This document shows positions 1-22,807 of a stretch of 64,000 nt of DNA, in pieces; within the stretch, counting starts at the first letter, position 1; each line of letters begins with the position of its first letter. Below the pieces are notes generated by a model. It ran no database searches and had not been told where the DNA came from. It was given only the letters and a program-made list of their open reading frames with translations. Both the position numbers and the translations under genes were made by a program. Origin of the DNA: Leucocoprinus leucothites (Eukaryota > Basidiomycota > Agaricomycetes > Agaricales > Agaricaceae); the NCBI GenBank assembly GCA_013368445.1, contig JAACJO010000013.1, positions 1,206,235 to 1,270,234 of the forward strand, read 5' to 3'.

Positions 1-3000
1 AGTAGAACCGCAGATCCAGGTGCTTCATGCGACCATGATGCTCAGGATTCTTGGAAACATCAATCCCAGACTTATTGTCAATCAGGAGAGTGGAAGCATA
101 GGAAGGGGAATAGCCAAACTCTGTCAGGATGTTCCTCATCCACATGATCTCCTTGCCAGCCTCAACTGCAGCCACATACTCAGCCTCTGTAGAAGAGAGA
201 GTAACAAAGGGCTGACGCTTGGAGGACCATCCCACAGCTCCACCACACACTAGAGTCACATATCCACCTGTAGAGCGACCGGTTTGCTTACAACCACCAT
301 GGGAAGCATCTGTGTAGGTCAGAAAGAGCTCCTCAGCTTCACAGCCCTTGTAAACAAGCTTGTAATTGCTTGTGCCCTTCAGATAGCGCAGGAGATGCTT
401 CACAGCAGCCCAGTGCTCAGGATGAGGGTTGTGGTTGAATCTCCCAAGGTAGGAGACTGCATAAGCAATATCTGGGCGAGTCATGGTGGCTAGATACTGC
501 AGGGAGCCTACAGCAGAGAGGTAGGGAATGGTTTGCATTTCCTCTTGCTGGGAAGGAGTGGGAACAAGTGTGGAGAGTTCTGTGCCAGGAGAGAGCGGAG
601 TCTTCACAGAATTGCAGTCAGACATGTTGAATCTGTTCAGGAGCTCCTGGACATAGTGGGATTGGGAAAGCGAAATAGTGTGGGCTTCAAGGTCCTGCTT
701 GACCTGGACAGAGAGGAGAAATGTAGTGGCTCCCAAATCGCGCAATTTGAAGTGTTTCTGCAGCTCCAGCACTGTGGCATCCATGGCAGCATCATTCTTC
801 GAAACAAGGGTGATATCATCGATGAAAACAGGCACTATGACCTTGACTTCACCCTTGGAGTAGATGTAGATGGAACTGTCACTCTGGAGTCGTTTAAAGC
901 CCAGGGAATCAAGCACAGTGTGTAGCTTCTTGTTCCACTGCCTAGCTGACTGTTTGAGGCCATAGAGCGATTTGTGCAGCTTGCAAACGACGTTTGGGCC
1001 TCCCTGGTGATATCCTTCAGGCTGCCTCATGTAGATGTCCTCATCCAGCTCTCCATAGGTGAAAGCAGAGGAGATATCCACAGATCGCATTTTGAAGCCT
1101 TCCTTGGCTGCCAGATCTATAATAAGGTGCAGGGATGCAGGATGAAATGTAGGGGCAAAAACCTCAGTGTAGTCATAGCCAGGATGCTGGGAATAGCCCT
1201 TTGCAACAAGCCTAGAGCGATAGCGCTCAATAGACTGGTCTGGGTCGAGTTTCAACTTGAAAACCCAGCCAGACTCAATGATTTTGGCCCCAGGAGGTAG
1301 CTCAACAAGCTCCCAGGTCCCATTTGCGATTAGAGTCGAAATTTCGGTGTTGCAGGCTTCTCTCCACTTGTCAGCATCCGGGGCCTTCATAGCAACCTTG
1401 TAGTTGCGAGGATCAGGCCCAGAAACACTTCCAGCAAACTCTACAACCTCATAGTCAGCATCAACATAGTTTCCTTGCTCCTGGTCCTTTGGAGGGAAGA
1501 GCAGAGGTTTCCCCAGTAGCCAGTAGGCTGTCCTGGGTGCTGGAGGTCGTGTGGAGCGTCGCTGAGGCTGTGGGGGCTGCGCAAGTGGTGTAGGAACCTG
1601 AGGAGGCATTCTGGGAGGTGCTGGACCAATAGGAGTGGCATAGGAGATGTCAGAATCATCAGAGTCCGATGGGGAGTCACCAGATCAAAGAGGAACACTA
1701 GGACCAGCCTTGGGAGTCTCTGGAGCGTCAGAGGGCTCTACAGATGGACTGGGAGGCAGGGATCGCTCCTCAGACTTGGGAGAGTGACTGGGAGACTCTG
1801 GGGGCTGCTGGGTCCGAGCTGGCACTCTAGGTGGCTCAGGAGCCTCAGATCGACGTTCTGGAGGCTGGTCAACATCACCCCCTTCATCTGAGAGCAGTGG
1901 AAAGCCAGAGGATGGAGGAAGTGGAGGAAAAGGTGGAGAAAAGCTACTTGAAGATTGAGGAGGTGCTGGAGGTCCAGGGGGCGCAAAAGACGGCACATCG
2001 TCGCGTTTGGAGCCTGTGAGACATGGAAAGTACCTCTCATCAAAGTCAGCTTGCTCAGAAATGCGAATTTGGCGAGTGGTGGGGTTGTAAAAGAGCCAGC
2101 CCTTGTAGCCAGTTGGATAACCAATAAAAACGCATTTTTCAACATGAGGCTGTAAGGAATTGCGCTTATCTTGCTGTATATGCACATAGGCAGTGCACCC
2201 CCATACCCTGAGGTGGGAAATGTCTGGTTTGCGCTTGAAAAATGCCTGGAAGGGTGTAGTGTTGGGGAGAGGAGCTGTAGGAAGTCTATTCCACACATGG
2301 ACCATAGAAGCAATACAGTGGCCCCAGAATGAGGGAGGGAGTCCAGACTCTGCTAACATGGCTATAATGTGTTCCCCCATAGTCCTGTTGGCTCTCTCAG
2401 CTAGGCCGTTCTGCTGAGGCCTGTTGCGAGTGGAATGACACCTCTCAATGCCACAGTCCTTGGTAAACTGCAAAAATGCGTTGGACATGTATTCACCACC
2501 TTTATCATCCTGTAGAGTGCGAATTTTCGCTCCTAGCTGGTTCTCTGCCCAAGCCTTGTACTCCTTGAACGCTTCAAAGGCTTCTGACTTGGCCCTAAGC
2601 AGGTAGACAGCTCGAAAACGCGTAGAATCATCAATAAACGTCATCCAGTACTTGTAGCCACTGTGGGTAGGCACTGGGAGCGGTCCATGGAGGTCTGAGT
2701 GCACCAACTCAAGTGGGGAACGATTGTGGTTGGCTGAGGGCAGGAAAGGAAGGGAGTGCATCTTTCCAGCAAGGCAGGGCTCACAAACTGCATCAGGCTG
2801 AGCTGAGGAGTCGATTTTAAGCCCAGTAACCAGTTCCTGCTGTATCATCTTCTTCACATCAGCATAATTATGGTGTGCAAAGTGATGGTGCCAGAGTGAG
2901 AGGTCAGCAGGAAGTGTGGAGATGCTAAAAGCAGTCTCAGAAGCGATGGTAGTGCCATTGAGGACAGCAGAGTTGGTGGAATCAATGGAGGCAGTGAAGA

Positions 3001-3580
3001 GAGTCTCTCCCTTGAGTCTAAAGGCCATAGAATGTGAGGAAATCGATATATTGAACCCCTTATTTCATGTGAGGTATAGACAAGACAGGAGATTACTCCG
3101 GAGGTCCGGAACATGCAGTACATGTGAAAACTCGACCGCTCCAGCCATTTTTCCGCCCATAACAGGGTAAAAGACCACTGAACCCATCCCAGCTGAATAT
3201 ATGACAGAGTTGTCTGCTAATCTGATTGGTATGCGACAGGGGGTATATTTCTTGAACCAATGACAGTGTGGGGTCATATGTGACGTAGCACCTGTGTCTG
3301 CAATCCAATGGAAGTCAGCATCGAGCTGGAGGGGTGGGGAAGAGGCTGGGGAAGTGGGGGAAGCAATAGGAGTGGAGGGGGAGCTTGTACTTGCATTTCC
3401 AGCGAATTCTGTGACTCTGCTTGCTTCTCCAGATGCTGGAGGGGCAGGGGAGCCGTCAGAGTTCTCCTGGGCCTTGTTGGCATGGTTTCCACGTTGTTTG
3501 GACCGGGGGGGAGTGTTCTGAGTGTCCTCTTGAGCTTTGAGGCAATCCTTGTCCTTTCTCCAGCATTTGGCCTCTGTATG
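1..3580 (-). pseudogene. cop1 copia pol: protease, integrase, RT, RNase H
   Basis: This is the pol part of a Ty1/copia retrotransposon read leftward and leaving the window at base 1. In order on the minus strand I see the last part of a CCHC knuckle at 3565-3580, an aspartic protease motif (DTGATSHM) near 3275-3300, the integrase zinc region (HHFAHH then CEPC), the integrase core (HSDLHG, DDKGGEY, NGLAERANR), a proline-rich linker, RT with FIDD near 810, and RNase H (TDASHGG, SSTEAEY, DNKSG). I followed one frame codon by codon from 1684 to 2 and it has no stop. Two in-frame TGAs break the frame, at 3065-3067 and 1685-1687; the first sits where an Arg CGA is plausible. The element is therefore only lightly damaged. 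The family identification is firm; the left end is missing. Confidence 0.9.
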
Positions 3581-5143: not shown

Positions 5144-7082
5144 CATCCCTCCTTGACCTCTTACCACCACCATCGAAAGTTGGTGTTTGATTAGACGTCT
5201 AGTTACACATTGTATTCTACCTATTCTACATGGGTAAATGAAAGTCCAAAGCCAAACAGGCTATACACCAATCAACCGAGTCTGCCAACGCCTCCGATGA
5301 CGAGCTCAACATCGCCGAGATGTCCGAGGATGAACATCTCGACCCATACGACGACCCGCGCAACATCCGCGGCTTCTCTGGACCTCGGTCCACTCCCCCT
5401 GAGGCTGACTGTGAGTCACCTCCTCACCCGGTGCCTGGTGACGTTTCGTCCCTCGCGCCTACTACTCAACCTCCGGTGGCTTTGAGCCCCGCAGGTCCTT
5501 CCACCGCCGCCCCCAGTGGCTCTATCGCACCCCGGGCTGGCCCCTCTGCCCCCTCTTCTGTCGGACCTGACTTGGAGGAGGAGGCCATCGCCGCCTATGA
5601 AGGCCTTCGTCGATTCAGGAGATGGTTCTCGAATCTTGATCCTGCCGCCGTCATGACCGACACGGCCCGACGCTCATTTGCTCTCTACGTCTGTGGGAGC
5701 ATGTGGGAATTCAGGAAGAGGGGCTGGGACGATACCCAGCTCACTCCAATGTTTCAGAAGCAGGGGTGGCCCACGGTCGACTCCTTCCTTTGCTCTGGGG
5801 GCTTTTCGACCGGCCCTAATTAACCACACGGTGACCACAAGTCGTCCCGCGGATCTGCTGACAAAGCAGGTCCACGTGACATCAGTATGGGTGACCCTGA
5901 AGCGCCCAAACAAGTGCCCCCGGATCGTCGGCCCGCCCCGGCCCATCCCACTTTACCACCCAAGCAAGCGCCTACTAAAGCGCGCGCTAGTGGCCCCCCT
6001 CAAGCTAAGGTTAGGTCTGATGGCCAAGCCCAGCGAGCGCCCACCAAAGCGCCCCCTCCTTCCACCTCGGCCAGGAAGTCCTTCGCCGAGGCGGCCCGCC
6101 CCACCGGGGTTGCGTCACTCATTAAGTTGGCGCAATCCCACCCCGATCTCGACCCTGATCGCATCACCACTATGCATCAGGCCGCCCAAGCCGCTGCTCC
6201 TGCCACTCGGAAGCCGCGCATGACTACCGCGGGCCCTACCCGCCGCCAGCTCTTCCTCGACTTCGTTGGCAGTGCCGATGAGGTCACCTACCTCCATCAC
6301 AAGGCCATGCGCCTTCTCAACGACTCCCTCTCCTGCGCCAAGTCAATCTTGCGTGTGGAAAACATCACCAAGGCGTACAGCACGATCGCGCTGCACACCT
6401 CCTCCGTTCCCTCTGACGCTGACTGTGATGTCATTGAGTCCTTCATTCCCTCCGTCTTCACCGCCCCCTTCGCGATCAAGACGCGCCGCCCCAGGTCGAG
6501 GTCCTACCTCAAGGTCCTCGATGTCCCTTACTTCGTGAACGGTGTCCGCATTATGCCAAATCACATGACCGACCGCATGCGACTGTCCGCCTTTAAGGAC
6601 ATTTTCGCAGATGTTTCCTCCGTGCGCATTATGCGCAACTCCACCAGAACCGACACCGCCACCGTCTGGTTCGACCTCTGGGACTCTCAATCAGGAGCGA
6701 GCGCCAAGAAGCTCCTGGGCAAGTACCTCCACTTCGAGGGTATTCAGTCCGTGATTCGGGCTGCGTGCGCTCATCCCAGCAGTCCTCAGTGTCAGCGTTG
6801 CTGGCACTGGGGTCACTCTACCTCATCATGCCGCGCCCGTGCATTACGATGCGCCGCCTGTGGCGGTCCTCATCGTACTGAGAACCACCGCTCCCACTCG
6901 AGCTGTTGTAAGGGGAGTCTGAAGGCCAATCCCCCTATCCCGCCCACTGCCGCCGAGGATCCCTGTCCTCACATCAAGTGTGTCAACTGCGCCAAGCGGC
7001 AGATTCTCCTTGTCCTCTTACCACCACCATCAAAAGTTGGTGTTTGTTCTGAGGCATTCCTACATCATCTATCTACAGTGAT

Positions 7083-8990
7083 ATGGGTAGGTGCAAGTCT
7101 AAAGCTACTGCTAACCAGTTTGCCGCGTTCGAATCTGAGTCCGCCGTCTCTGACGACGAGCTCAACATCGCCGAGATGGCCGAAGACGACCACCTCGACC
7201 CCTACGACAACCCACTCAACATGCGTGGGTTCTTCGGTCCCCCCCAGGCTGACGTTCCGTCGCCTGGCCCCTCCCAACCGACAGCTGACGTTTCGTCGCC
7301 GTCGGTTGCTCCTCCAGTGGCTGATGTTCTGTTGCCACTCAAACCCTTCACAGCTGGTGGAACCACCTTCTACCCTGTTGACGCTCCCCCTGCCGTGCCT
7401 GAATCAGTGACCTCCTCCAAGGGAAAGAAGAAGGAGCTCACCCCGAAGCGCGCTCTCTCCAGCCTCCGCACATTCCTCAAGTGGTTAGAGGATTGTGCCG
7501 AATCCCACTCCTCCATTGCAGAGGTGGATGCATCTGCGGCCGTCACTTGCTTGGCTAAGGCGGCCTTTGTCATCGTCGACGAGTTGGAACTCGACGGCAC
7601 CCCCCTCTCCTCGCACTTGCTCAGCTCTCGCGGGCTGGTCGATTTTGGGGATGTAATGTACGACCTCGGGCGCAAGTGTGGGTTGTCCGAGGCCGGCCCT
7701 AAAGCAATGCGCGTCATCCACAAGGTGACCCATGGATCCGCTGACTCAGCGGGTCCACGTGACATCGACATGGGTTCCCCCAAGGCGCCCACCCTGCCCC
7801 CCCCGGATCGTCGGCCCGCCCTGGCCTGTCCCCCCCTACCGCCCAAGCCGGCGCCTGCAAAGGCCCGCGCTAGTGGCAAAGCACCCATTCAAGCGCCCCC
7901 TGCTCCTAAGGTTAGGTCTGATGGCCAAGCCCGGCGAGCGCCCATCCCTCCCTCGGCGGCTAAGAAGTCGTTCGCTGAGGTAGCCCGTACCCCGGCGTCT
8001 GCGGCAGCGCTTATCAAGCTGGCCCAGTCCCACCCCACCCTCGAGCCTGATCGCGTCGCCGCGATGCATCAGGCCGCCCTTGCTGATGCGCCTTCTGCAA
8101 AGAAGCCCCGCATGACCACGTCGGGCCCCACCCGACGCCAACTCTTCCTCGATTTCACTGGCAGCTCCAGTGATATCACCTACCTCCACCACAAGGCCAT
8201 GCGCCTTCTCAACGATTCCCTCACTCGCGCGAAGAGCTCACTTCGCGTCGAGAACATCGCTCGGGCGTACGACACCATCTCGTTGTACACCAACTCCGTC
8301 GCCACTGATGCCGATGCATTAGTGATCGAATCCTCCCTCTCTTCAGCCTTCACTGCCCTGTTTGAGCTGAAGACTAAGCGCCCCAGGTCCAGGTCTTACC
8401 TCAAGATCCTGGACGTCCCTTACTACACAAGTGGCATCCGTACCACTCTGCAACACGTCACCGACCGTATGCGTCTGTCTCCCTTCAAGGAGACATTCGC
8501 TAACGTATCTTCTGTGCGCATCATGCGCAACTCCGCCAAAGCCGACACCGCCACCATCTGGGTCGACCTTTGGGATTCTCAGTCCGGCGCTAACGCTAAG
8601 CGCCTGGTCGGCAAATACCTCAACTTCGACGGCGTGCAGTCCATGATCAAGGCCGCACACACTCACCCCGGGACCCCCCAGTGTCAACGATGCTGGCGAT
8701 GGGGCCACACTACCACCACCTGCCGCAACTGTGCGCTCAGGTGCTCACAATGCGGTGGGCCACATTGGTCCGAGAATCACCGCACTACCTCCTCCTGCTG
8801 TAAGGGATCGCCGAAGGCAAACCCCCCCATTCAGCCCACACCCACTGGGGATCCCTGTCCCCATATCAAGTGCGTCAATTGCAGCAAGGAACATGCTGCT
8901 ACTGACCGCAAGTGCGCGTTCTGGCGCCACCGGTTTGATCGGGATTGGCTGCAAAGTCATTCTGGTTCTGCTGGTCGGCCCCGGGCCTAG
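7083..8990 (+). CDS. HL2-a ORF1, 635 aa Gag-like CCHC protein
   Basis: The reading frame is uninterrupted from the first ATG of the element. The N-terminus is basic (MGRCKSKATANQ), followed by an acidic block (DDELNIAEMAEDDHLDPYDN), FFGPPQ, and ADV(S/P)SP-type repeats. A variable middle module starts SKGKKKELTPKRAL. A conserved block follows (HGSADSAGPRDIDMGSPKAP, proline-rich, then RMTTSGPTRRQLFLDF). The C-terminal third has three Cys/His clusters: CQRCWRWGHTTTTC from about residue 534, CSQCGGPH near 556 and CVNCSKEHAATDRKC near 597. The last two thirds align by eye with LB ORF1. The likely role is nucleic-acid binding and RNP formation, as for LINE ORF1 proteins. It encodes no catalytic domain of its own. 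Confidence 0.88.
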   Translation: MGRCKSKATANQFAAFESESAVSDDELNIAEMAEDDHLDPYDNPLNMRGFFGPPQADVPSPGPSQPTADVSSPSVAPPVADVLLPLKPFTAGGTTFYPVDAPPAVPESVTSSKGKKKELTPKRALSSLRTFLKWLEDCAESHSSIAEVDASAAVTCLAKAAFVIVDELELDGTPLSSHLLSSRGLVDFGDVMYDLGRKCGLSEAGPKAMRVIHKVTHGSADSAGPRDIDMGSPKAPTLPPPDRRPALACPPLPPKPAPAKARASGKAPIQAPPAPKVRSDGQARRAPIPPSAAKKSFAEVARTPASAAALIKLAQSHPTLEPDRVAAMHQAALADAPSAKKPRMTTSGPTRRQLFLDFTGSSSDITYLHHKAMRLLNDSLTRAKSSLRVENIARAYDTISLYTNSVATDADALVIESSLSSAFTALFELKTKRPRSRSYLKILDVPYYTSGIRTTLQHVTDRMRLSPFKETFANVSSVRIMRNSAKADTATIWVDLWDSQSGANAKRLVGKYLNFDGVQSMIKAAHTHPGTPQCQRCWRWGHTTTTCRNCALRCSQCGGPHWSENHRTTSSCCKGSPKANPPIQPTPTGDPCPHIKCVNCSKEHAATDRKCAFWRHRFDRDWLQSHSGSAGRPRA

Positions 8991-9277
8991 GGGGAGCTCC
9001 CTAGTGTCAACGCATCATCCCCCACCCATCACCGGTCGCCGGGTGGGCTCCCACCAACCACAAGGCCTGCCTTCAGATGCAGTGATATCGGTATATGTTT
9101 CTTTCCTTTGTATTTAGTTACATGCCTAGCCCCCCTTCTGCTGTCGACTCGTGTATTGTTTTGGACAGGACCTTTATATATTCCCGGTTGTTTACTTGTG
9201 CGTAGTCGGTAGCGGTATCGGTTCCATGTGGTAGATAGTCGGGCGCGGACTGCTATCACGCACCGCGTTATAAATTG

Positions 9278-9296
9278 GCGACCCCCCTGGGGTCGC
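9278..9296 (+). other. 3' hairpin of HL2-a
   Basis: GCGACCCC, loop CCT, GGGGTCGC form a perfect 8 bp stem just upstream of the poly(A). HL1-a has the same stem with loop AGA at 9727-9745. It lies within the 3' tail otherwise shared with LB, so it may be an RT-recognition structure specific to HL1 and HL2. Confidence 0.75.
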
Positions 9297-9726
9297 ACTT
9301 GATATAAAAAAAAAAAAAAAAAAATGTGCCAAGCGGCATGCAGCTGACGATTGCAAGTGCCCATTCTGGCGACACTGGTTTGACCGGCTTTGGCTTGAAA
9401 ACCATCACCGCGATGCCGCTCGGTCGTGTCTGTAGGGTTCTCTTCCCTACAGGTTGCATTGTCCGCCCCCGCACTGTGCATGGTGGGCCATCGAGATCCA
9501 TGCCGTGCATTTTCCATCCGCCGGTAATCCAGAACAACCTGACTTGTATTGTATTATGCTTTCATTTCGAACTATGTACCACTGTGTGAAGATATCGTTT
9601 GTACTAGGCGGACTTCGGACTCATATATATATTCCTAGCTATGTAGATGTGTAGTCGGTAGCGGTACTTTCTGCATGTCGTAGCAGTTGGGCGCGGACTG
9701 CTATCGTGCACCACGTTATAAATTTG

Positions 9727-9745
9727 CGACCCCAGAGGGGTCGCG
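9727..9745 (+). other. 3' hairpin of HL1-a
   Basis: GCGACCCC, loop AGA, GGGGTCGC: a perfect 8 bp stem about 10 bases before the poly(A). The stem is the same as in HL2-a at 9278-9296 with a different loop, which suggests that the stem rather than the loop is maintained. Confidence 0.75.
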
Positions 9746-9777
9746 CTTGATTTTAAAAAAAAAAAAAAAAAAAAAAA

Positions 9778-9812: not shown

Positions 9813-9891
9813 CAGCCTCCTTTCCCTCTTACCACCATCATCGATTTCTTTGACGGTGTCTACATACACATTGACTACAAATTCTATCGAT

Positions 9892-12648
9892 ATGACTGCA
9901 CCATCACATTGGGTGGACCTTAAGGGTACACCTCCACCGTCTTTGGACCCCATCAACATCGTTGACACTGAAACACGTGTCTCAACTCACAAGCGCGACC
10001 GCTCCAATTCGCCCGCGCTCTCTATCAAATCAACCAAGCATTCCGCCCGCGATGACGCCAAGTCGGCCGCTTCATCTAGAGCAGGATCTGACATTGAAGA
10101 AAGTGGTGAGAGTGATTCCGATTCGTCTGAATCTTCAGCCCCTTCCTCCCCCACAAACGTACATGCTGCACTCTCCCGTGCAGCCTCACACTCTTCCCTC
10201 AGAACTCCCCCTCCTCCATCGTCGCGTTCCAAGCGGGCTCGTGCTCGTGATGTTCGTAGAGGATTGGAGGCTACACCCAAAGCTGTCTCAAGAACCGTGT
10301 CGAGGAGCGCATATGACAGTTTCAAGTCACCCATTCCCTTCCGACCATTCGGCGAGGGATTCCTTGGTGAGCTCAACAATCCTGACCCTCTGAATTTGGA
10401 CTCCCGCGGGGACGCATGGAGCGACCAAGAGGATGGGATTATCACGAACGGGGAACCTGCCACTCGGTTCTTTGGACCCCCACCCACCTCAAGGCTGCCT
10501 CATGTGATCCACGGATCTAATGAGTCAGCAAATGCTGTGCCAACCGGCACTCCGGCTACCTTAGGTGCCGGATCATCTAATACTAATGACGTCACACATG
10601 ACGTCACACATGATGTCACTGGTGACATCATTGCACAGCTGCAGGAGCCTAGGCCTGCACAGCCACATCTACCAGATCTTAAGGATCCATCAAACACTGC
10701 CACCGAGGAGATTGTCGTCGTCGGTGAAGCTACTTACAAAGCGCTGGAGGCGCTTAAATATGCTACTAACTTTTTCAAGCACCGCGCTGCGCTAGGATTA
10801 CAACCTGGCAGAAAGGATCCAAGAGTTCCCCAGATGGGGGAGCCAATATATTGTCTACTCACTACTATGTTTGAAACAGGCTGGGACCGGCTCCCCATCA
10901 ATGGGGAAAGTGGCCTCACCATCGTCGATGCACTAAGGCACTACTATGGCCCGCCTCCCGATATTCCCATGACGGACTCTTCCCCCCCTCCCAAAGGTAA
11001 GGGGAAAGGAAAAAAGGCACGTAATCCCCATCCGTCTACCATCCCTACCCCCCTATTCCCGCCTGGCATTGTCGTTGGGCAAAATAACCTTTCAGCGCAC
11101 ATCGATGATGACCGCATGAACGTCGACCAAGCCCCTCCCGCTGAGGGCACCACTCCTCTCCCCCAGAATGACGTTACGTCTTCTGGTAAGGCACGTGACG
11201 TTTCGTCCGTGTCAGGCTCCCTGAAGGCAAGGAATGACGTTACGTCTTCCAAGCCCTCCGGTCCTATTCACGTCTCCCGGGCCCCCCCTCCACCTTCCAA
11301 TCACGTGACTCCAAGGAACGGGAATGGAAACTTCGAGCGCTCAGTTGGGCGCCTATCTTCTGATGGCCAGGCTCAGCCATCTAAACCTAACCCCAAGAGC
11401 GCCTCTGACATGCCGCCTCCTATTCCCCCTCCTGACCGTAAGGCATCCATCAAACCCCTTACGGAACACTTCAACAAGAAGAATGTGTCGTTCGCTGATG
11501 CCGCCCGACGGGGTGTCCAGCCGGCGATTCCCCCTTCCAACTCTTCTTCGAACATTGATGGGATTAAGATGCGAGAAATGATACTCGCCTTCCCTGAATT
11601 ATCATACAACAAAGTCCTTGCCATGTATAAGGCAGGTTTCGGAGGCGCTCAACCTCAAGCGCCCGAGCCTTCAACCATAAGCGCCCCACGTGCTAAACCT
11701 AAAATGACCACGCACGGACCCACCCGTCGTCAAGTCCTCATCCCATTTGAGGGAAACATCATCGCTGACCGCATTAAAGACTTCAACAAGGCAGCCGAAT
11801 TCTGTAACTGTGGTCTTACCGCCACCCAATCTAAACTTCGTGTTGAATCAGTCCGCGAATCATATAATGGCATATCGATTGCCACCTCAGGTGTCGCTTC
11901 CCCCGCTGACCTGGAAACCATCAAATCCTGGCTTAAAAAAGCCTGGCAACTAGGAGATGCCATCCCCGTTGAGCCTCGTCTCCCACAATCTAAATCATTC
12001 CTTAAAATCGTCGGCGTCCCTTATTGGGTAGCCAATTCCTCCAACCCCCTTTCCCCTGCGTTCGTTGAACAAGCCCTCGGACAATCCACTTTGTTCGAAA
12101 ATGTTATTCTTGCCGCCCGCCCTCGCGTTATGAAAGCTTCCCCAAAATCGGACACGGCCGTTGTGTGGTTTGATATTTGGGATTCCCAAAACGGTACTAA
12201 AGCCAAGACGTTGGTTAACCGTACTATCAACTTCGGCCGACATGTTGGAACTATCCGGGCTACTAGTATGCACCCCGGCATTGCGCAATGCAGGAACTGT
12301 TGGCGCTGGGGACATCCCACTCATGCGTGTCGCGCCCTTGGCGCACGTTGTCAAATCTGTGGTGGTCCTCATCGCATTGAAAACCATCGATCCATGGCCT
12401 GGTGTTGCAAGGCCAATCCCAAATCCAACCCCCCCTGTGACGCCACTCCTGAGGGCATCCCATGTCCTCACCTGGAGAACTTCAAATGCCTGAACTGCAA
12501 AGGCGATCATCACGCTAACAACACCAAATGTCCATTCTGGAGAAACAGGTTCGATCGAACCTGGCATTCCAATAAAGCCGCCGAATCACGTACCGCACGT
12601 GCAGTTCACGCTAATTCCAATCACTCCGGTGGCAGAGTTGCTGTTTAA
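9892..12648 (+). CDS. LB-1 ORF1, 918 aa Gag-like CCHC protein
   Basis: The ATG at 9892 starts MTAPSHWVDLKGTPPP; no ATG lies upstream in frame within the element. The N-terminal half is low-complexity, Ser/Pro-rich and acidic, with a DVTHDVTHDVTGD repeat near 10587-10625. The C-terminal half is the conserved ORF1 region (KPKMTTHGPTRRQVLIPFEG, SFLKIVGVPYW, TAVVWFDIWDSQNG). It ends with Cys/His clusters: CRNCWRWGHPTHAC from about residue 800, CQICGGPH near 820 and CLNCKGDHHANNTKC near 866. This is typical of an RNA-binding LINE ORF1 protein. It is uninterrupted, and ORF2 starts two bases after its stop. Confidence 0.9.
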   Translation: MTAPSHWVDLKGTPPPSLDPINIVDTETRVSTHKRDRSNSPALSIKSTKHSARDDAKSAASSRAGSDIEESGESDSDSSESSAPSSPTNVHAALSRAASHSSLRTPPPPSSRSKRARARDVRRGLEATPKAVSRTVSRSAYDSFKSPIPFRPFGEGFLGELNNPDPLNLDSRGDAWSDQEDGIITNGEPATRFFGPPPTSRLPHVIHGSNESANAVPTGTPATLGAGSSNTNDVTHDVTHDVTGDIIAQLQEPRPAQPHLPDLKDPSNTATEEIVVVGEATYKALEALKYATNFFKHRAALGLQPGRKDPRVPQMGEPIYCLLTTMFETGWDRLPINGESGLTIVDALRHYYGPPPDIPMTDSSPPPKGKGKGKKARNPHPSTIPTPLFPPGIVVGQNNLSAHIDDDRMNVDQAPPAEGTTPLPQNDVTSSGKARDVSSVSGSLKARNDVTSSKPSGPIHVSRAPPPPSNHVTPRNGNGNFERSVGRLSSDGQAQPSKPNPKSASDMPPPIPPPDRKASIKPLTEHFNKKNVSFADAARRGVQPAIPPSNSSSNIDGIKMREMILAFPELSYNKVLAMYKAGFGGAQPQAPEPSTISAPRAKPKMTTHGPTRRQVLIPFEGNIIADRIKDFNKAAEFCNCGLTATQSKLRVESVRESYNGISIATSGVASPADLETIKSWLKKAWQLGDAIPVEPRLPQSKSFLKIVGVPYWVANSSNPLSPAFVEQALGQSTLFENVILAARPRVMKASPKSDTAVVWFDIWDSQNGTKAKTLVNRTINFGRHVGTIRATSMHPGIAQCRNCWRWGHPTHACRALGARCQICGGPHRIENHRSMAWCCKANPKSNPPCDATPEGIPCPHLENFKCLNCKGDHHANNTKCPFWRNRFDRTWHSNKAAESRTARAVHANSNHSGGRVAV

Positions 12649-12653
12649 ATATG
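12646..12653 (+). promoter_or_regulatory. ORF1 stop / ORF2 start overlap zone TAAATATG
   Basis: The ORF1 stop TAA (12646-12648) is separated by two bases from the ORF2 ATG (12651-12653). The same TAAATATG occurs at 24596, 25303 and 50434 in other copies. The constant spacing suggests termination-coupled reinitiation for ORF2, as proposed for some other LINEs. This is inferred only. Confidence 0.5.
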
Positions 12654-15600
12654 TCTGGTAAGAACAAACCCATCTCTTCTGTTCGTATCTATTCGCAAAA
12701 CGTGGGACACTCTTACACCCTAGTTGATACCATACTTGAGTCCAAAAAGTTGGATTTCGAAGTCATCTTTCTACAGGAACCCCCATGGAACCACATTCGG
12801 AAAGCACCTTCTACGACTAACCCTGAAGGGGATGATGTCATTGGTGCCCCTATTCACCCGGAATGGCTGTGTATGGTCCGCCCTACCAAGCCTAACGATC
12901 CCCGACCCCGTACTCTGACTTATGTTCACAGACGCTTACTTCGCATGAGGCCCATTCTTCGTCAAGAGTGGGTTAACCACCGCGATATACAAATCTTGGG
13001 CTTATTCAACCAGGGTAACTATATCCATCTACTTAACATATACTTGGACTCGTCTTCGTCAGCGATCAATTTCCTTTCAACGAACTTCATCAACATCCCT
13101 AACGTTATATATATGGGAGGGGACTTCAATTGTCGATCTCCAGAATGGGACCCTTCAGCCACTTACGTCCCTATGTCGGCTATAACTCTATCGGAGTTGG
13201 CGGATAGCTTCAATCTTACAAGGTCCTCACCGACTTCATTATCTCCTACTCATTTCTCTTCTATTGAAAGTCATGACGATTCGGTTATCGATCTTATTTT
13301 TTGTGCTAACAATTCCACCTCCCACATCATCGATGTCAATTCGAGACTCCCATCGGATCATGCACCCTTGATTATGGATCTTCCAATCCGCCCAGACTAT
13401 ATTAATTATAAAAAATGAGTACTACCGAAAGATAGCAATGAGGAGACGGCTTTCATTTCCCAAGTCTCTGAGCATCTAGCGGCCCTTGACTGTTCGGACA
13501 TTCGATCCACTTCCTGTCTGAACGATATTTCTAACTCCATTTCTCGAATCTTTCATGAATCTTGGAATATGAACTCTAAAACTGTATGGATTACTAACCG
13601 GTCAAAGGAATGGTGGAACCCCCACTGTTCTGAGACTCTTCTCACTTACAGAAGAACAAAAGATCGTAAGGACTGGCGAGCATTCAGAGCGGCTACCAGA
13701 GCCGCCAAACGCTCCTTCTTCGATGCGCGCATCCATGAAATCGCATCGACTAACAAACGACCCTGGGACCTCATGGATTGGGTAAAACAGCGAAAGCTTC
13801 CCGCCGTTGAAGGAATCCACCATCAAGGACGACCTTGTAATGACCTTCCAGACCTATGGAACGCACTCCATTCTTCGTACAACTCAGCATCCGGTCGTCC
13901 GGTAAGCTCTAATATTCTAAATGAAATGAAATATCTTCCCCCCCGTTCCTGGAAAAATTTTTCCGTCCTCGAACTCACCGAATCCCTCCTGTCATGCGCT
14001 AATTCTTCAGCACCCGGACCGGATCACGTCTCCTGGAAACACCTAAAGTCCATCGTCGCCCACAATGAATGCCTCAAAAACATTCTACTCATTGCTAATG
14101 CGTGCGTACGTCTCTCTCATTGGCCGAGTCACTTCAAGGACTCGGTTTCTATCATCATTCCCAAGCCGAATAAACCGGCATATGATACACCTAAAGCGTT
14201 TCGCCCCATTGTTCTACTAAACACTTTAGGTAAATTAATCGAGAAGATGATTGCTCGCCGCATGCAGTTTGAAGCGGTATCCCTAGATGTTCTACACCCC
14301 AACCAAATGGGCGGAGTTATCCAACGATCCACTGAGGATGCAGGAGTATTCCTCACTCACATCATTCGGACTGGATGGGCTAAAGGTATGGTTACTAGTG
14401 TCTGTGCTTTTGACATCGCCCAATTTTTCCCATCCCTAAACCACGAAATCCTCACTAACATCCTACAACGACAGGGGTTCGCCCCAGAACTAGTCAATTT
14501 CTTTTCACACTATCTCATAGGTCGATCCACTCAGTTCATGTGGAACACTTTTCTATCTGATGCCCATGATGCGGATGTTGGCGTTGGGCAAGGCTCCGCT
14601 TTATCACCCATTCTATCCACGCTCTATTTAGCGCCCCTCATGTTCATGTTCGACCAACGCGCTCGCTTACAGTCTATCCCCTCTTCCCTTTTATCATTTG
14701 TTGATGACGGGCTTTGTATATCACAAGCGAAGAATTATACTGACACTATTTCTTCCCTCAAATCAGCTTATTCCATCATTAACTCCATTTGCACTGATCT
14801 CGGACTTGTCGTCGAACACGATAAATCTGAGGTCTTTCACTTCTCCCGACGTCATAACGACCTAAACCCCCCCCTTGATCTATCCGATGTCGGCGGCCCT
14901 ATACTCTATCCCAAACGTTTCTGGCGATACTTGGGTTTTTATTTCGACCGCCGACTTTTGTTTCAGGAACACGTTCGGTATTATTCTACCAAAGCATTAT
15001 CCACAGTGAAAGCTATGAAAATGCTTGGCAATTCCACCCGAGGCCTCCTCCCTCTACAAAAATGTCTACTCTATAGATCGTGCGTTGTCCCTGTGGCTAC
15101 GTATGGTTTCCGACTCTGGTACTTTGAAGGCGCTCGTAACAAGGCACTTCTCAAGTCTCTATCAGCCATGCAAAGACGTGCGGCTCTTTGGATCACAGGT
15201 GCCTTCCGTACTTCCCCATCAGGCAGTGCCAAAAGCATTGCGGGACTTATTCCAATTCACCTCCATCTTCGTAAATTAGCTATTCGCTCGTCGTATCGAG
15301 TCTCTACTTTACCCTCTAATCATGCATTACGGTCTCTTTTATCTAAGGATTTTTCTCTTAACTCCTCCCCTCATCCCCAATCGCTTCGCCTTCTCACCCC
15401 GGCCAAAAAAGCTAAAGTCAAAGGCCCTCTTATTGATGTAGATAGTTCTCTTTCTCACCTTTCTGAATCCTTCTCTCCATTCGCTCCCGAATCAAAGCCT
15501 GGATCTCGTCTTATGGACATCTTTCCTGATTCTATTCACTTTCACCCCTGCAATCGCTCGGATAAACACAAAATGTATAAACATGTATCATCTCTCGATT

Positions 15601-16604
15601 CAACTTTTTCCTCTTCTTCTTCCGATCAAAATTGTATTTCAGTTGTTACTGATGCCTCTGTTCCCCTCGTAGGTTCCCTTCAGGCGGTTTCGGCGGCACA
15701 CTTATATCGCGGCAGACGACAAGTGTCCCATGCAAAACAAGCTAGCGGTCGAGCATCATCTACTGATGCCGAACTTTATTCCATTCGTATTGGCATTGCC
15801 AAAGCCATTTCTCTCCAGTGTGACCACATTATCCTCATCACCGATTGCCTCCCAGCAGCCAAACTGGCAGTCGACCCCTCTATACATTCGAGTCAATCAC
15901 ATTCTATCCAAGTCTGCCGACTCCTTTCTGACTGGCTCACGGCTAAACCCTCCCGATCTATTGACTTCTGGGACGTCCCTTCCAAATGGCATTGGAAGCC
16001 CCATCTTAAAGTTCACAAAGACGTCACCTCCACACGCATACATGCCCCCCCTCGAGTAGGCGCCACTCTCGATTTCCTGCGACGCAAAATCACCAATGAC
16101 TGCCAGAAGTCCTGGGAGTCAACTTTCTGGAAGAAGAAGTACCGCGGCAGCAGTTTCCTTCTTTCAAAAAAGAATCGCAAGTTCCTCACCCCTACCTACG
16201 TAAAGGGGGGCACCTGGCTTCCCTTAGTCAATGAATCACCATCCTTATGTGCGCATGTGTCTCGCGCCATCCTCAATCACGCTCCTATTGGAGCTTATCA
16301 CGAGAGGTTCTTCCCCCTCGAGCCCAAATCCTGTCGTTGTGGCCATCGTCTGGAAACACGACATCACATCCTGTGCTACTGCCCCCTATATCCTTTCTGC
16401 ACTCAATGGGTACAATGCGCTTTTCCTCAGTACGAGTTCCTCGTCGAGTTCTTGAAGAAGAACCCGACCACTTTTGCTTTTACCAATCACGACACGCGTT
16501 CACTGCCGCCCCAAGCTCCTGTGCCCGCCGAACCAAATGAAGGTGAACTATATTCTTTCATCTCTTCTCTTTTCTTTTCCTTTGAGACCGATCTCTGTGT
16601 ATGA
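12651..16604 (+). pseudogene. LB-1 ORF2: endonuclease-RT-RNase H, one nonsense codon
   Basis: The frame is 1,317 codons with a single TGA at 13416-13418 (codon 256). The endonuclease has Q16/N17, E43 (FLQEPPW), GDFN with D158, and SDH with D236/H237. RT follows: PIVLLNTLGKLIEKMIARR, motif A FDIAQFFPSL (D588), GQGSALSPILS, and FVDDG (D685/D686). RNase H has TDAS (D1001), TDAELY (E1041) and ITDC (D1065). The C-terminal cluster CRCGHRLETRHHILCYCP is usual in this LINE group. The stop falls between endonuclease and RT, where other copies have W, H, Q or C. The protein would nick target DNA and reverse-transcribe element RNA. Confidence 0.92.
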
Positions 16605-16745
16605 CACCTCGTTCTATAGTCTCCTTCGAGTCTTATCTATGTTGCTGGACTAATCGTGTATAGTCTCTGTCTTAAGCGGTCTCTGACCGCTTCGTGTACC
16701 CCAGCTTGCTGTAGTGTACCGTCTGTTTGTAATATTTAGTTGAAA

Positions 16746-16807
16746 GCGGACTGCGATCGAGCACCGCTATATAAATTCATTGATTTAAAAAAAAAAAAAA
16801 AAAAAAA
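16746..16807 (+). other. LB 3' tail and poly(A)
   Basis: GCGGACTGC, ATCGAGCACC, GCTATATAAATTCATTG and then poly(A) form the LB 3' end. HL1, HL2 and HL3 tails carry the same order of motifs. This is the part of the RNA that a LINE RT normally recognises when priming at the target. Confidence 0.75.
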
Positions 16808-17452: not shown

Positions 17453-18409
17453 TTGTGCCAGATTGAACATAAAACTGGTCTAGGAAAGTCTACTGTTGGG
17501 AGGATCAAGAAAGAAGTTGATGGGGACAAGGAAAACAACAAGGGAGGACGTCCTTCCAAGCTTTCTCCTCGTGATAAAAAAGCAATAATTCACCAAATAA
17601 CCTCTGGAAAGCTAGACAATGCTGTCCAGGCTACAACTTTCATTAACTCTACTCTGTCTGACCCTGTCACACCCCAAACTGTCAGAAATACCCTTCAGGA
17701 TAATGGATTTTGCTCTGTAACCAAGATCAAACGACCTCTACTCAAAAAGCGACATCGTGAGGAACGCCTTGACTTTGCACATGAACATAGGAATTGGACA
17801 GTGGAGGACTGGAAGAGGGTGTTGTGGACAGATGAAACAAAGATCAACAGGATTGGGTCAGATGGAAAGGTGTATACCTGGAAGGAGAGGGGGGAACCAC
17901 TGTCAGATAGGACCACTCTCCCTACTGTCAAACATGGAGGAGGTGGTAACATGATGGTGTGGGGGTGTATGGGGTGGAATGGGGTAGGAAAGCTGATAGA
18001 GGTTCAAGGGAATATGGATGCAGTGCAATACTGCGAGATTTTGGACAATGGGGTGGTGGAAAGCTTTGAAAAGTTGGAGATGGAGGAGGAGGAGAGGATA
18101 TTCCAGCAGGATAATGACCCAAAACACACCTCAAAACTGGGACAACAATGGTTTGTGGACAACAACATTCAAGTTCTACCATGGCCTGCACAATCCCCTG
18201 ACCTAAATCCCATTGAACACCTCTGGACCTACCTGAAGGACCAGCTGAAGGCATATGAAAGACCACCCAAGGGAGTATTTGAATTGTGGGAGAGGCTAGT
18301 AGAGGAGTGGAATAAGATTCCAGCAGAAAGGTGCCAAAGGCTGATAGAAAGCATGCCCAGAAGGATTGAGGCAGTTATCAGGGCAAGAGGAGGTCATACA
18401 AAGTATTGA
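17453..18409 (+). CDS. Tc1-like transposase, DD34E
   Basis: The protein cuts and joins transposon ends in the nucleus. The N-terminal helix-turn-helix (LLKDGYSLCQIEHKTGLGKS) begins upstream of this start. The DDE_3 catalytic core has WTDETK (D127), QQDNDPKHTS (D220) and NPIEHLW (E255), counted from the first base given, with 34 residues between the second D and the E. The first codon given is TTG, not ATG. The open frame extends back to 17354 without an ATG, so the true start is unknown: a short upstream exon, a non-AUG start, or a lost start. The catalytic part is intact. Confidence 0.85.
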   Translation: MCQIEHKTGLGKSTVGRIKKEVDGDKENNKGGRPSKLSPRDKKAIIHQITSGKLDNAVQATTFINSTLSDPVTPQTVRNTLQDNGFCSVTKIKRPLLKKRHREERLDFAHEHRNWTVEDWKRVLWTDETKINRIGSDGKVYTWKERGEPLSDRTTLPTVKHGGGGNMMVWGCMGWNGVGKLIEVQGNMDAVQYCEILDNGVVESFEKLEMEEEERIFQQDNDPKHTSKLGQQWFVDNNIQVLPWPAQSPDLNPIEHLWTYLKDQLKAYERPPKGVFELWERLVEEWNKIPAERCQRLIESMPRRIEAVIRARGGHTKY

Positions 18410-20088: not shown

Positions 20089-20128
<40 letters not shown>

Positions 20129-22413
20129 AGTGCAACCCCGGAGGGGTCGCCAATTTATAACACAGTGTGCGATAGCAGTCCGCGCCCAACTACTACAACA
20201 TGCAGGAAGTACCGCTACCAACTACACATCTACATAGCTAGGTATATATATACGAGTCCGAAGTCCACCTAGTACAAATGATATCTTCACACAGTGGTAC
20301 ATAGTTCGAAATGAAAGTATAGTACAATACAAGTCGGGGTGTTCTGATTTACCAGTGGATGGAAAATGCATGGCATGGATCTTGATGACCCACCATGCAC
20401 AGCGCGGGGGCGGACAATGCGACCTGCAGGGAAGAGAACCCTACAGACGCGACCGAGCGGCATCACGGTGATGGTTTTCAAGCCAAAGCCAGTCAAACTA
20501 GTGTCGCCAGAATGGGCACTTGCGGTCGTCAGCTGCATGCGACTTGGTGCAGTTGACGCACTTGATGTGAGGACAGGGATCCTCAGCGGCGGTGGGCAGG
20601 ATAGGGGGATTGGCCTTTGGACTCCCCTTACAACAGCTCGAGTGGGAGCGGTGGTTCTCAGTACAATGAGGACCACCGCAGGCGGCGCATCGTAACGCAT
20701 GGGCGTGGCACGATGAGGTAGAGTGACCCCAGCGCCAGCAATGCTGACACTGAGGACTGCCTGGATGAGCGCGCGCAGCCCGGATCACAGACTGAACACC
20801 CTCGAAGTGGAGGTACTTGCCCAGGAGCTTCTTGGCGCTCGCTCCTGATTGAGAGTCCCAGAGGTCGAACCAGACGGTGGCGGTGTCGGCTCTGGTGGAG
20901 TTACGCATGATGCGTACGGAGGAGACATCTGCGAAAATGTCCTTGAAGGCGGACAATCGCATGCGGTTGGTCACGTGAGTTGGCATGATGCGGACACTGT
21001 TCACAAAGTAGGGGACATCGAGGACCTTGAGGTAGGACCTCGACCTGGGGCGGCGCGTCTTGATCGCGAAGGGGGCGGTGAAGATGGAGGGAATGGAGGA
21101 CTCAATGACATCACAGTCGGCATCAGAGGGAACAGAGGAGGTGTGCAGCGAAATAGTGCTGTACGCCTTGGTGATGTTCTCCACATGCAAGGTCGACTTG
21201 GCACAGGAGAGGGAGTCGTTGAGAAGGCGCATGGCCTTGTGATGGAGGTAGGTGACCTCATTGGCACTGCCGATGAAGTCGAGGAAGAGTTGGCAGCGGG
21301 TAGGGCCCACGGTTGTCATGTGCGGCTTCCGAGTGGCGGGAGCGGCGGCTTGGGTGGCCTGATGCATAGCGGTGATGCGATCAGGATCGAGATCGGGGTG
21401 GGATTGTGCCAACTTAATGAGTGACGCAACCCCGGTGGGGCGGGCTGCCTCGGCAAAGGACTTCTTGACCGAGGTGGAAGGAGGGGGCGCTTTGGTGGGC
21501 GCTCGCTGGGCTTGGCCATCAGACCTAACCCTAGCTTGGGAAGGGCCACTAGCGCGCGCTTTAGTAGGCGCTTGCTTGGGCGGTAAAGTGGGACGGGCCG
21601 GGGCGGGCTGACGATCCAGGGGCGTTTGCTTGGGCGCTTTAGGGGAGCCCATGTTAATGTCACGTGGTTCCGCTTTGTCAGCGGATCCATGGATCGCCTC
21701 ATGGGCGACGCGCGTACGTTTAGGGTAGGCCGCCTCAACTCTGGTGGCACAGTCCCGAATGAAATCTGCAAATGTGTCCCATCTCTGGGCTCGCATTCGC
21801 TCATTGGCGAGGGCCGTGTCGCCTTGGCCCTGGTTTAGAACTTCCGCAACCAGTCCAACAAGAGTCGGGATGATCACGGCGGTGGTGGCCTCTGGAAGAG
21901 GGCCTGAGGGAACGCTCCTGATGAAGCGGGAGAAGAAACGGATCCCAGCAAGAGCCCAGGTCTCAGCAGACTCCTCAGTTGACCTGGAGGAGATGGCAGA
22001 TGGCGGTGCTGGGGGAGGAAGGTTCTTCACAGGGTAGAACGTCTGTCCGCCGGCAGTGAAGGGTTTTGGGGACGGCGACGGAATGTCAGCCGAGGGAGCA
22101 ACCGCCAACTGCGACAGAATGTCAGCGGCAGGCAGGGAAGAGGGACCAGGCGACGAAACGTCAGCCTGGGGAGGTCCGAAGAACCCGCAAATGTTGCAGG
22201 AATCATTGTAGGGGTCGAGATGTTTGTCCTCGGACATCTCGGCGATGTTGAGCTTGTCGGTGGAGGCCTCGGCGGACTCGGTAGATTGGCGGGGGGGGCC
22301 CTTAGATTTAGACTTTCGCTTGCCCATGTAGAATAGGCAGAGATACGATGTAAACTAGACGTCTTAAAACACACCAACGAATAGATGGTGGTGGTAAGAG
22401 GTCAAGGAGAGAT
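20086..22413 (-). mobile_element. HL1-b: full-length ORF1-only half-LINE
   Basis: The 2.33 kb element lies on the minus strand, with poly(A) (read as T) at the left and the family 5' terminus near 22410. The duplication GGTGCAATGTGCTTT at 20071-20085 and 22414-22428 lies in LB-2 ORF2. It has ORF1 and a 3' UTR but no ORF2. Confidence 0.91.
20498..22327 (-). CDS. HL1-b ORF1, 609 aa, short by a late stop
   Basis: The ATG at 22327 starts MGKRKSKSKGPPRQSTESAE. The N-terminal acidic block (DKLNIAEMSEDKHLDPYND), FFGPPQADVSSPGPSS, the module TWALAGIRFFSRFIRSVP, the conserved C-terminal half and three Cys/His clusters (CQHCWRWGH, CAACGGPHCTENH, CVNCTKSHAADDRKC) are all present. It stops at a TAG where HL1-c has Trp (WRH then stop instead of WRHWFDRLW), losing about 19 residues after the last knuckle. 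Protein function may be little affected. Confidence 0.86.
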   Translation of the reverse strand: MGKRKSKSKGPPRQSTESAEASTDKLNIAEMSEDKHLDPYNDSCNICGFFGPPQADVSSPGPSSLPAADILSQLAVAPSADIPSPSPKPFTAGGQTFYPVKNLPPPAPPSAISSRSTEESAETWALAGIRFFSRFIRSVPSGPLPEATTAVIIPTLVGLVAEVLNQGQGDTALANERMRAQRWDTFADFIRDCATRVEAAYPKRTRVAHEAIHGSADKAEPRDINMGSPKAPKQTPLDRQPAPARPTLPPKQAPTKARASGPSQARVRSDGQAQRAPTKAPPPSTSVKKSFAEAARPTGVASLIKLAQSHPDLDPDRITAMHQATQAAAPATRKPHMTTVGPTRCQLFLDFIGSANEVTYLHHKAMRLLNDSLSCAKSTLHVENITKAYSTISLHTSSVPSDADCDVIESSIPSIFTAPFAIKTRRPRSRSYLKVLDVPYFVNSVRIMPTHVTNRMRLSAFKDIFADVSSVRIMRNSTRADTATVWFDLWDSQSGASAKKLLGKYLHFEGVQSVIRAARAHPGSPQCQHCWRWGHSTSSCHAHALRCAACGGPHCTENHRSHSSCCKGSPKANPPILPTAAEDPCPHIKCVNCTKSHAADDRKCPFWRH

Positions 22414-22807
22414 GGTGCAATGTGCTTTCCCTCAGTATGAGTTCCTCATTGAGTTCTTGAAAAAGAACCTGGCTGCTTTTGCCTTCACCAATCACGACAC
22501 ACATCCACCGCCACTTCAAGTCCCTGTGCCTGCCGAACCTAATAAAGGTGAACTTTATTCTTTCATCTCTTCTTTCCTTTTTTCTTTTGAGTCCAATCTC
22601 TGTATATGATACCTTGTTCTATAGTCTCTTTCTCGAGTCTTTTCTATTTTGCTAGACTAACTGTATATAGTCTTTGTCTTAAGCAGTCTTCAACTGCTTT
22701 GTGTACCCCAGCTTGCTATAGTGTACCATCTACTTGTATTATTTAGTTGAAAGCAGACTGTGATTGAGCACCGCTATATAAATTCATTGATGAAAAAAAA
22801 AAAAAAA

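Follow-up and report, generated by a model that had tools for sequence, protein, structure and literature searches.

The HL elements of Leucocoprinus leucothites very probably represent a non-autonomous LINE family, which descended from an LB-related LINE minus ORF2 and uses the ORF2 protein of LB in trans. Judged by its units, the target-site duplications, the missing ORF2, the selection on ORF1 and the termini common to both elements, HL resembles an ORF1-only element that has long persisted as a parasite or partner of LB and operates in the manner of HeT-A in Drosophila or HAL1 in mammals. A first-pass annotation of the window, a stretch of 64,000 nucleotides, had interpreted these elements as "half-LINEs," and this interpretation is supported. 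As far as DNA sequence can tell, the case consists of the unit, its repeated insertion, the absence of ORF2 from the copies examined, the homology of ORF1 to that of LB, the common termini, the selection and the joint clusters.

The element HL2-a, as read from the sequence, occupies positions 7002-9305 on the plus strand and ends with a poly(A) tail of 19 A (9306-9324, +). Its insertion at 7002-9338 split another unit, HL1-a (5144-9777, +). The 5' copy of the 14-bp target-site duplication (TGCGCCAAGCGGCA, 6988-7001, +) is located inside ORF1 of HL1-a and has 1 mismatch to the 3' copy (TGTGCCAAGCGGCA, 9325-9338, +). The 5' terminus (..CTCCTTGTCCTCTTACCACCACCATC, 7002-7032, +) resembles that of LB at 9813. 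An open ORF1 frame of 635 aa (7083-8990, +) contains two predicted RRM-like folds at residues about 350-525 (8130-8657, +; AlphaFold and structure matches) and three putative zinc-knuckle-like Cys/His motifs assigned by motif reading (C534-C547, C554-C572 and C597-C611; 8682-8915, +). The 3' UTR of 315 nt (8991-9305, +) is without ORF2; according to a comparison of 3' ends, it carries a terminal block common to HL2-a and LB, GCGGACTG..GCACCGC..ATAAATT (9245-9276, +), and an extra hairpin-like repeat (GCGACCCC/GGGGTCGC, 9278-9296, +).

HL1-c, including its poly(A), is located on the minus strand at 41073-43386 (element 43386-41097, A24 at 41073-41096), with an ORF1 of 628 aa (41413-43299, -) and a 14-bp target-site duplication. 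HL2-a and HL1-c had been described as complete 2.3-kb units with a conserved 5' end, an intact ORF1, a 3' UTR, poly(A) and duplications, and this description holds; the sequence from the ORF1 stop to the start of poly(A), 315 nt in HL2-a and 317 nt in HL1-c, contains no ORF2. The window also contains a complete HL1-type unit with a 609-aa frame and a 15-nt duplication (20123-22414, -) and an HL unit with a broken ORF1 and a 14-bp duplication (30261-32493, +). The presumed partner LB, a full LINE with poly(A) and the duplication TCCCTCATCAACA, is found at 9813-16807 (+), with ORF1 at 9892-12648 (+). Its ORF2 region at 12651-16604 (+), with the endonuclease, RT (RVT_1) and RNase H-like domains, is not a single open frame in the window copy; two LB copies elsewhere, L050 and L051, possess an open 910-aa ORF1 and an open 1317-aa ORF2.

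The genome-wide search that had been proposed, performed on one assembly of 47 Mb, yielded at least 52 full-length HL1/HL2 places with 84-96% identity, the window copies counted in. These were at least 25 of the 95 HL2 matches (start at 5 or below, end at 2275 or above, of 2309) and at least 27 of the 96 HL1 matches (start at 4 or below, end at 2306 or above, of 2310), two of the 27 being a mirror pair on contig C6 that may be one duplicated insertion. The counts are lower bounds because 39 of 485 HL2 and 38 of 509 HL1 candidates were scored. After removal of 3 of 41 matches from the duplication test (one copy of a window unit, one interrupted, one short), an exact duplication of at least 9 nt was present in 26 of the 38 complete units and of at least 12 nt in 22, with a mean of 0.01 at both thresholds in a control with flanks swapped between units; 12 of the 38 were without an exact duplication of at least 9 nt. 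The duplications were mostly 13-16 bp long and are, together with the poly(A) tails, the signature of a movement of the full unit by target-primed reverse transcription. Comparison of ORF1 resulted in six labeled subfamilies, HL1, HL1b, HL2, HL2c, HL3 and HL4, in agreement with the earlier estimate of at least four ORF1-only subfamilies, and 31 HL frames of 607-637 aa were present among the sequences compared.

ORF1 of HL2-a is homologous to that of LB (identity in 147 of 371 alignment columns, with an E of 3e-80 in a single comparison), and the Cys residues of the zinc-knuckle-like motifs are invariant across 27 aligned HL and LB sequences. AlphaFold gave block means of 60-86 from residue 351 of HL2-a ORF1 onward, but of 52-53 at 421-440, and RRM structures were the top structure matches of the predicted fold. 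Pfam returned nothing over the cut-off for two HL ORF1s and the LB ORF1, and a PDB sequence search gave a single weak match, a CCHC protein with an E of 0.1.

HL and LB have roughly the first 30 nt and the last 45 nt in common. For the 3' terminal block, 105 places provided 55 distinct 3' ends for comparison. The extra hairpin-like repeat occurs in most HL1, HL2 and HL4 ends and is absent from the HL3 and LB ends read. A conserved RNA hairpin in the common 3' block is possible and hardly supported by covariation, which was small for the predicted structure (1 of 7 pairs). The first base past the A-run, A being excluded by construction, was a G in 13 of the 17 HL ends of hairpin type and in 8 of 10 LB/HL3-type ends, a small sample that agrees with the expectation for a single endonuclease serving both elements. 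The common termini argue for LB as the probable source of the RT of HL. Another LINE might provide the RT instead, with the remaining explanation unchanged, and the 150 endonuclease matches, taken together and not sorted by family, leave room for such a partner. This alternative is unlikely, however, because the termini of HL match those of LB and the LINE ORF2 sequence read beside HL is about 78% or more identical to LB.

An origin of the HL copies by internal deletion from a living autonomous LINE, which would have the same 5' end and ORF1 plus its own ORF2, is favored by the homology of ORF1 to that of LB and by the LB-like termini. Both indicate that HL probably did arise from such a LINE at some time. 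The search for an HL-type ORF2 used matches to the C-terminal part of HL ORF1 (126 scored of 1021 candidates), endonuclease matches (150 scored of 188) and LB ORF2 (813 candidates, of which 45 were scored and gave 46 matches). As the first-pass annotation had stated for the HL units, ORF2 was missing: none of the 126 scored ORF1s had an endonuclease or LB ORF2 at LB spacing on its 3' side, and the HL elements are, within this sample, ORF1-only retrotransposons with complete units and one Gag-like ORF1. A same-strand endonuclease or RT was found within 3 kb of four of the 126; opposite-strand neighbors within 3 kb were no rarer than same-strand ones (11 versus 6 match rows). In the three of these four cases that were read, a linkage of HL to ORF2 was rejected, the 3' UTR and tail of HL itself preceding the next element; the fourth, C28:258926, has its endonuclease 1699 nt away. 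One of the three, an apparent chimera of HL and ORF2 at C28:232479, is in fact an HL3-type unit whose 3' UTR and tail are complete and which has LB as its neighbor on the 3' side. With 126 of 1021 candidates from one genome scored and three of the four near cases read, HL-type ORF1s that possess an ORF2 may exist as rare forms. Nevertheless, the HL units have independent duplications, their subfamilies have split at a dS of up to about 1.3 with no ORF2-bearing form seen, and synonymous sites between the ORF1s of HL and LB are saturated, all of which makes the deletion origin quite unlikely.

The ORF1 of HL is under purifying selection. On long ORF1 frames, dN/dS between subfamilies was 0.23-0.43 for the full frame (0.20-0.41 with CpG masked) and 0.10-0.23 for the C-terminal half with the RRM and zinc-knuckle region; within subfamilies, it was 0.13-0.35. 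Neutral simulations with stops rejected gave 0.74-1.0. The earlier claim that a protein-coding ORF1 was retained across subfamilies was thus borne out; a dN/dS near 1 had been named as speaking against it, and 0.20-0.43 was obtained. This result also bears on the possibility that ORF1 is a fossil passenger and that HL moves in a SINE-like manner by its ends, for which LB-like termini might suffice, and 13 of 29 HL2-type copies indeed have stops in ORF1. Measured against the neutral values, however, and against 31 open frames, an unselected ORF1 is very unlikely and already strongly disfavored. As a measure of whether broken copies multiply, which bears on a cis preference of ORF1, changes common to at least two of the 29 HL2-type copies were counted: nonsense changes were common at 3 of 7 sites, CpG-type missense changes at 112 of 123, missense changes in total at 290 of 472 and synonymous changes at 349 of 496. 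Frameshift-length gaps were common to at least two copies in 4 of 14 cases and in-frame gaps in 9 of 17; the four common frameshift-length gaps are neighbors that jointly keep the frame, and uncompensated frameshifts are few and seemingly private.

A single ORF with poly(A) and duplications might also suggest that HL units are retrogenes, processed from a host gene that was domesticated out of a LINE ORF1. This is extremely improbable, given that both termini are LINE-like in all subfamilies under comparison, and given the location of all 126 scored ORF1 matches in repeat clusters, none alone on a contig.

In the preferred explanation, a non-autonomous HL served by LB, ORF2 would have been lost once, the simplest timing being ahead of the divergence of today's HL subfamilies. 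The HL RNA would resemble LB at both its 5' and its 3' terminus and end in poly(A), and the HL ORF1 protein probably coats this RNA, its own by preference if it acts in cis. It would hand the RNA to the ORF2 protein made by LB, which possesses endonuclease and RT activity. This protein may nick the target and copy the HL RNA by target-primed reverse transcription, leaving the duplications of mostly 13-16 bp.

Tad1-type LINEs of fungi possess an ORF1 with zinc-knuckle-like motifs and an ORF2 with an APE-like endonuclease, RT and an RNase H-like domain. LB has the same combination and is perhaps, as judged by its domains, a Tad1-type LINE; HL is without the ORF2. Fungal SINE/LINE pairs with a common tail are reported with Mg-SINE/MgL and SINE2-1_BG/Tad1-24_BG (PMC3747384), and HL likewise is a non-autonomous element with a LINE tail, whereas Mg-SINE and SINE2-1_BG have a tRNA promoter and HL a selected ORF1 and a LINE-like 5' end. 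HL is not a short, non-coding element with a Pol III-derived head: its selected frames encode 607-637 aa, and an Rfam scan of the window found nothing at the gathering scores. In mammalian L1, ORF1p forms a coiled-coil trimer and has a single RRM but no known zinc knuckles. HAL1 (half-L1) of mammals, reported as a non-autonomous LINE derivative coding only for ORF1p that arose several times (PMC5753468), resembles HL in being ORF1-only. In contrast to HAL1, which derived from L1, HL is marked by zinc-knuckle-like motifs as well as termini of the LB type, and a single origin is its simplest reading; with an ORF1 that matches that of LB, HL appears to have neither an L1 origin nor an L1 ORF1p, the latter compared by description.

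HeT-A of Drosophila is described as a non-LTR retrotransposon that codes only for Gag, its RT being ascribed to TART or TAHRE (PMC11698117, PMC5537684). HL shares with it one Gag-like ORF, no RT, RT-bearing relatives alongside and one type of chromosomal region. HeT-A, which the first-pass annotation did not name, is the closest analogue of HL by gene content and habit. It joins chromosome ends head-to-tail, whereas HL inserts internally, nested and with duplications, in internal clusters, and shows neither attachment to chromosome ends nor head-to-tail arrays. Mammals (HAL1) and flies (HeT-A) already provide examples of ORF1-only LINEs; here, there is a family of several subfamilies with open frames, strong constraint and a plausible partner LINE, itself with open frames. 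Titles and abstract openings of the literature revealed no ORF1-only LINE in fungi. HL and LB would allow two old questions to be tested jointly: why a costly ORF1 persists in an element that borrows its RT, and how LINEs come to be restricted to regions resembling centromeres. One small genome contains all the parts.

On each of 11 large contigs, the HL and LINE-endonuclease matches (51 and 80 in total) are gathered in a single interval of 26-231 kb. This confinement of HL to clusters was absent from the earlier reading and is new here. No such interval was found on C11, C12 and C14-C19; the contigs of the assembly are not whole chromosomes. We infer that the clusters are candidate centromeres. 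HL and LB could even be a centromere-dwelling pair, with a Gag-like HL ORF1 protein delivering the RNA of HL, and perhaps that of LB as well, to centromeric chromatin, by analogy to the HeT-A Gag reported to bring its RNA to fly telomeres (PMC11698117). This idea is doubtful at present; if true, a half-LINE would be a partner in building centromere DNA and not a mere parasite.

In Tricholoma matsutake, candidate centromeres are reported as GC-rich, LINE-enriched and LTR-poor regions at a single position on all chromosomes but one; in T. bakamatsutake, at least 10 of 13 chromosomes have a region rich in marY2N, frequently close to the center, without a general LINE enrichment (PMC10211490, PMC10627285). 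The HL/LB clusters recall these regions in forming one element-rich interval on each large contig that has them; the passages on the Tricholoma regions describe no ORF1-only family. LTR elements are also reported from mushroom centromeres (PMC8022983, PMC10817607, PMC10696834). Different from the GC-rich T. matsutake region, the HL window showed no raised GC (0.492 versus 0.484-0.492 in four 6-kb background stretches); the mean GC of the HL-rich loci examined was 0.532. The clusters on C2, C3 and C4 are about 1.2-2.3 Mb away from the telomere-bearing end of the contig. The telomere repeat in the assembly is TTAGGG.

Two complete half-LINE units of the window, HL2-a (7002 to 9324, plus strand) and HL1-c (41073 to 43386, minus strand), possess the 5' end, single ORF1 (635 and 628 aa, respectively), short 3' UTR, poly(A) and target-site duplications described for them in the first-pass annotation; the duplications measured 14 bp. 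A search of 47.0 Mb in 110 contigs, where the window makes up the terminal 64 kb of C13, revealed many full-length copies: the HL2 DNA query gave at least 95 match rows, at least 25 of them spanning the unit (39 of 485 candidates scored), and the HL1 query at least 96 and at least 27 (38 of 509). LB, the LINE with ORF1 and an ORF2 region at 9813 to 16807 (plus strand), gave at least 19 rows, at least 11 covering nearly the whole element (14 of 533). Thirty loci were collected from the HL2 search (L001 to L030) and 23 more were added (L031 to L053); the window and L001 to L051 contained 41 complete units identified by their ends. After exclusion of a copy of a window unit, an interrupted unit and a short unit, an exact duplication of at least 9 nt was present in 26 of 38 units, and of at least 12 nt in 22 of 38, versus 0.01 for either length when flanks were swapped between units. 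This indicates that HL units were inserted many times as wholes, and the existence of the family is well supported.

In LB, about 380 nt separate ORF1 from the start of the endonuclease domain, and about 920 nt separate it from that of the long RT frame. Compared with 46 LB ORF2 matches (from 45 scored candidates of 813) and 150 endonuclease hits (from 188 candidates), none of 126 scored HL ORF1 C-terminal hits (of 1,021 candidates) had an endonuclease or RT at this spacing on the same strand, in agreement with the proposed lack of an ORF2. Four of the 126 had one within 3 kb on the same strand: an RT at 374 nt (C28:232479) and endonucleases at 777 nt (C28:241605), 994 nt (C41:14240) and 1,699 nt (C28:258926). 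The sequence was read for the first three, and in each HL's own 3' UTR and tail were followed by another element. Opposite-strand pairs within 3 kb were no rarer than same-strand pairs (11 versus 6 rows), so that neighbors of this kind are to be expected in nested clusters.

Selection was evaluated by NG86 on 34 long ORF1s (31 HL and 3 LB). Between HL subfamilies, dN/dS was 0.23 to 0.43 at dS of 0.40 to 1.28 (CpG-masked, 0.20 to 0.41 and 0.35 to 1.33), values biased downward by the use of long frames only. Neutral simulations with stops rejected gave 0.92 to 0.93 without and 0.74 to 0.80 with CpG bias, or 0.85 to 1.00 when the latter were masked; a range of 0.23 to 0.43 versus 0.74 to 1.00 means that ORF1 has been kept as protein-coding by selection, as had been suggested. 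Within subfamilies, dN/dS was 0.13 to 0.35, and between them 0.10 to 0.23 in the C-terminal and 0.26 to 0.56 in the N-terminal half. A mosaic pattern marks the N-terminal half, in which HL1 and HL1b differed by a dS of 0.80, versus 0.09 in the C-terminal half. N-terminal modules seem to have been swapped among subfamilies with the C-terminal half kept (L046 and L048 versus window 41413 to 43299).

HL and LB ORF1 share 40% identity across 371 aligned columns, with synonymous sites saturated over the whole ORF. Their 5' starts are alike (HL, CTCCTTGTCCTCTTACCACCACCATC; LB, CTCCTTTCCCTCTTACCACCATCATC), as are their 3' ends (GCGGACTG..GCACCGC..ATAAAT..), a block present in 55 different 3' ends collected at 105 places. 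A hairpin-like repeat adjoins the tail in most HL1, HL2 and HL4 ends (window 9278 to 9296 and HL loci) and was absent from the HL3 and LB ends read and from the HL2-type L009, L019 and L039. The A-run was followed by G at 13 of 17 HL ends of the hairpin type and at 8 of 10 ends of the LB/HL3 type. Two LB copies on C28 (L050, L051) have an open 910-aa ORF1 and 1,317-aa ORF2. The HL ORF1 protein probably binds HL RNA, which the LB ORF2 product would probably copy; since ORF1 was constrained over a dS of about 1, an ORF1 protein favoring its source RNA would be the easiest account. HAL1 is the mammalian parallel (PMC5753468). The system working most like HL would be HeT-A, whose coding capacity is limited to a Gag-like protein, the RT being encoded by TART and TAHRE (PMC11698117, PMC5537684). 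Tail sharing between LINEs and SINEs is on record in fungi (PMC3747384), and literature searches for ORF1-only LINEs listed no fungal example.

The most interesting part of the HL finding is its confinement to candidate centromeres. On C1 to C10 and C13, one interval per contig (26 to 231 kb) holds all 51 HL ORF1 and 80 endonuclease hits (from 126 of 1,021 and 150 of 188 scored candidates). The 11 intervals total 1.42 of 27.6 Mb (5.1%, with the size of C9 a guess), giving a log10 P of about −138 versus uniform spread. No scored hits of either kind were on C11, C12 or C14 to C19; smaller contigs also bear them, with two endonuclease hits on contigs without HL hits (C27, C37). As a control, 65 of 150 RVT_1 hits, mostly LTR-type as judged by frame length and with LB scoring below the list, were on the 11 contigs and 12 inside the intervals. 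Among the roughly 100 telomere places listed, of 180 in total, C2, C3 and C4 each carried an array at the right-hand end, about 1.2 to 2.3 Mb from the cluster of that contig. Centromeres have been proposed at single LINE-enriched regions in Tricholoma matsutake and at regions rich in marY2N in T. bakamatsutake (PMC10211490, PMC10627285), and candidate centromeres are the best reading of the HL/LB intervals from their sequence.

All 180 TTAGGG-array matches were forward and none reverse; those listed were at right-hand contig ends except one at C2:3107124. On C6 (117430 to 151204), LB, HL1 and HL2 pieces are paired as mirror images whose scores are the same or nearly so, which suggests a large inverted repeat centered near 134 kb, either a palindromic centromere core or an assembly artifact. 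With 37 of 172 HL ORF1 and LB ORF2 hits, and no stop in 5 of its 11 LB ORF2 hits, the C28 cluster (93000 to 345000) appears to be younger or more active than the other clusters. The CpG observed/expected ratio of the window (1 to 64000) was 0.66, versus 0.88 to 0.92 in four background stretches, as after methylation-driven decay. Translations suggested a Tc1/mariner-like transposase frame (17453 to 18409) and Ty1/copia-like pieces (1685 to 3028, 60502 to 61623) among the LINEs of the window.
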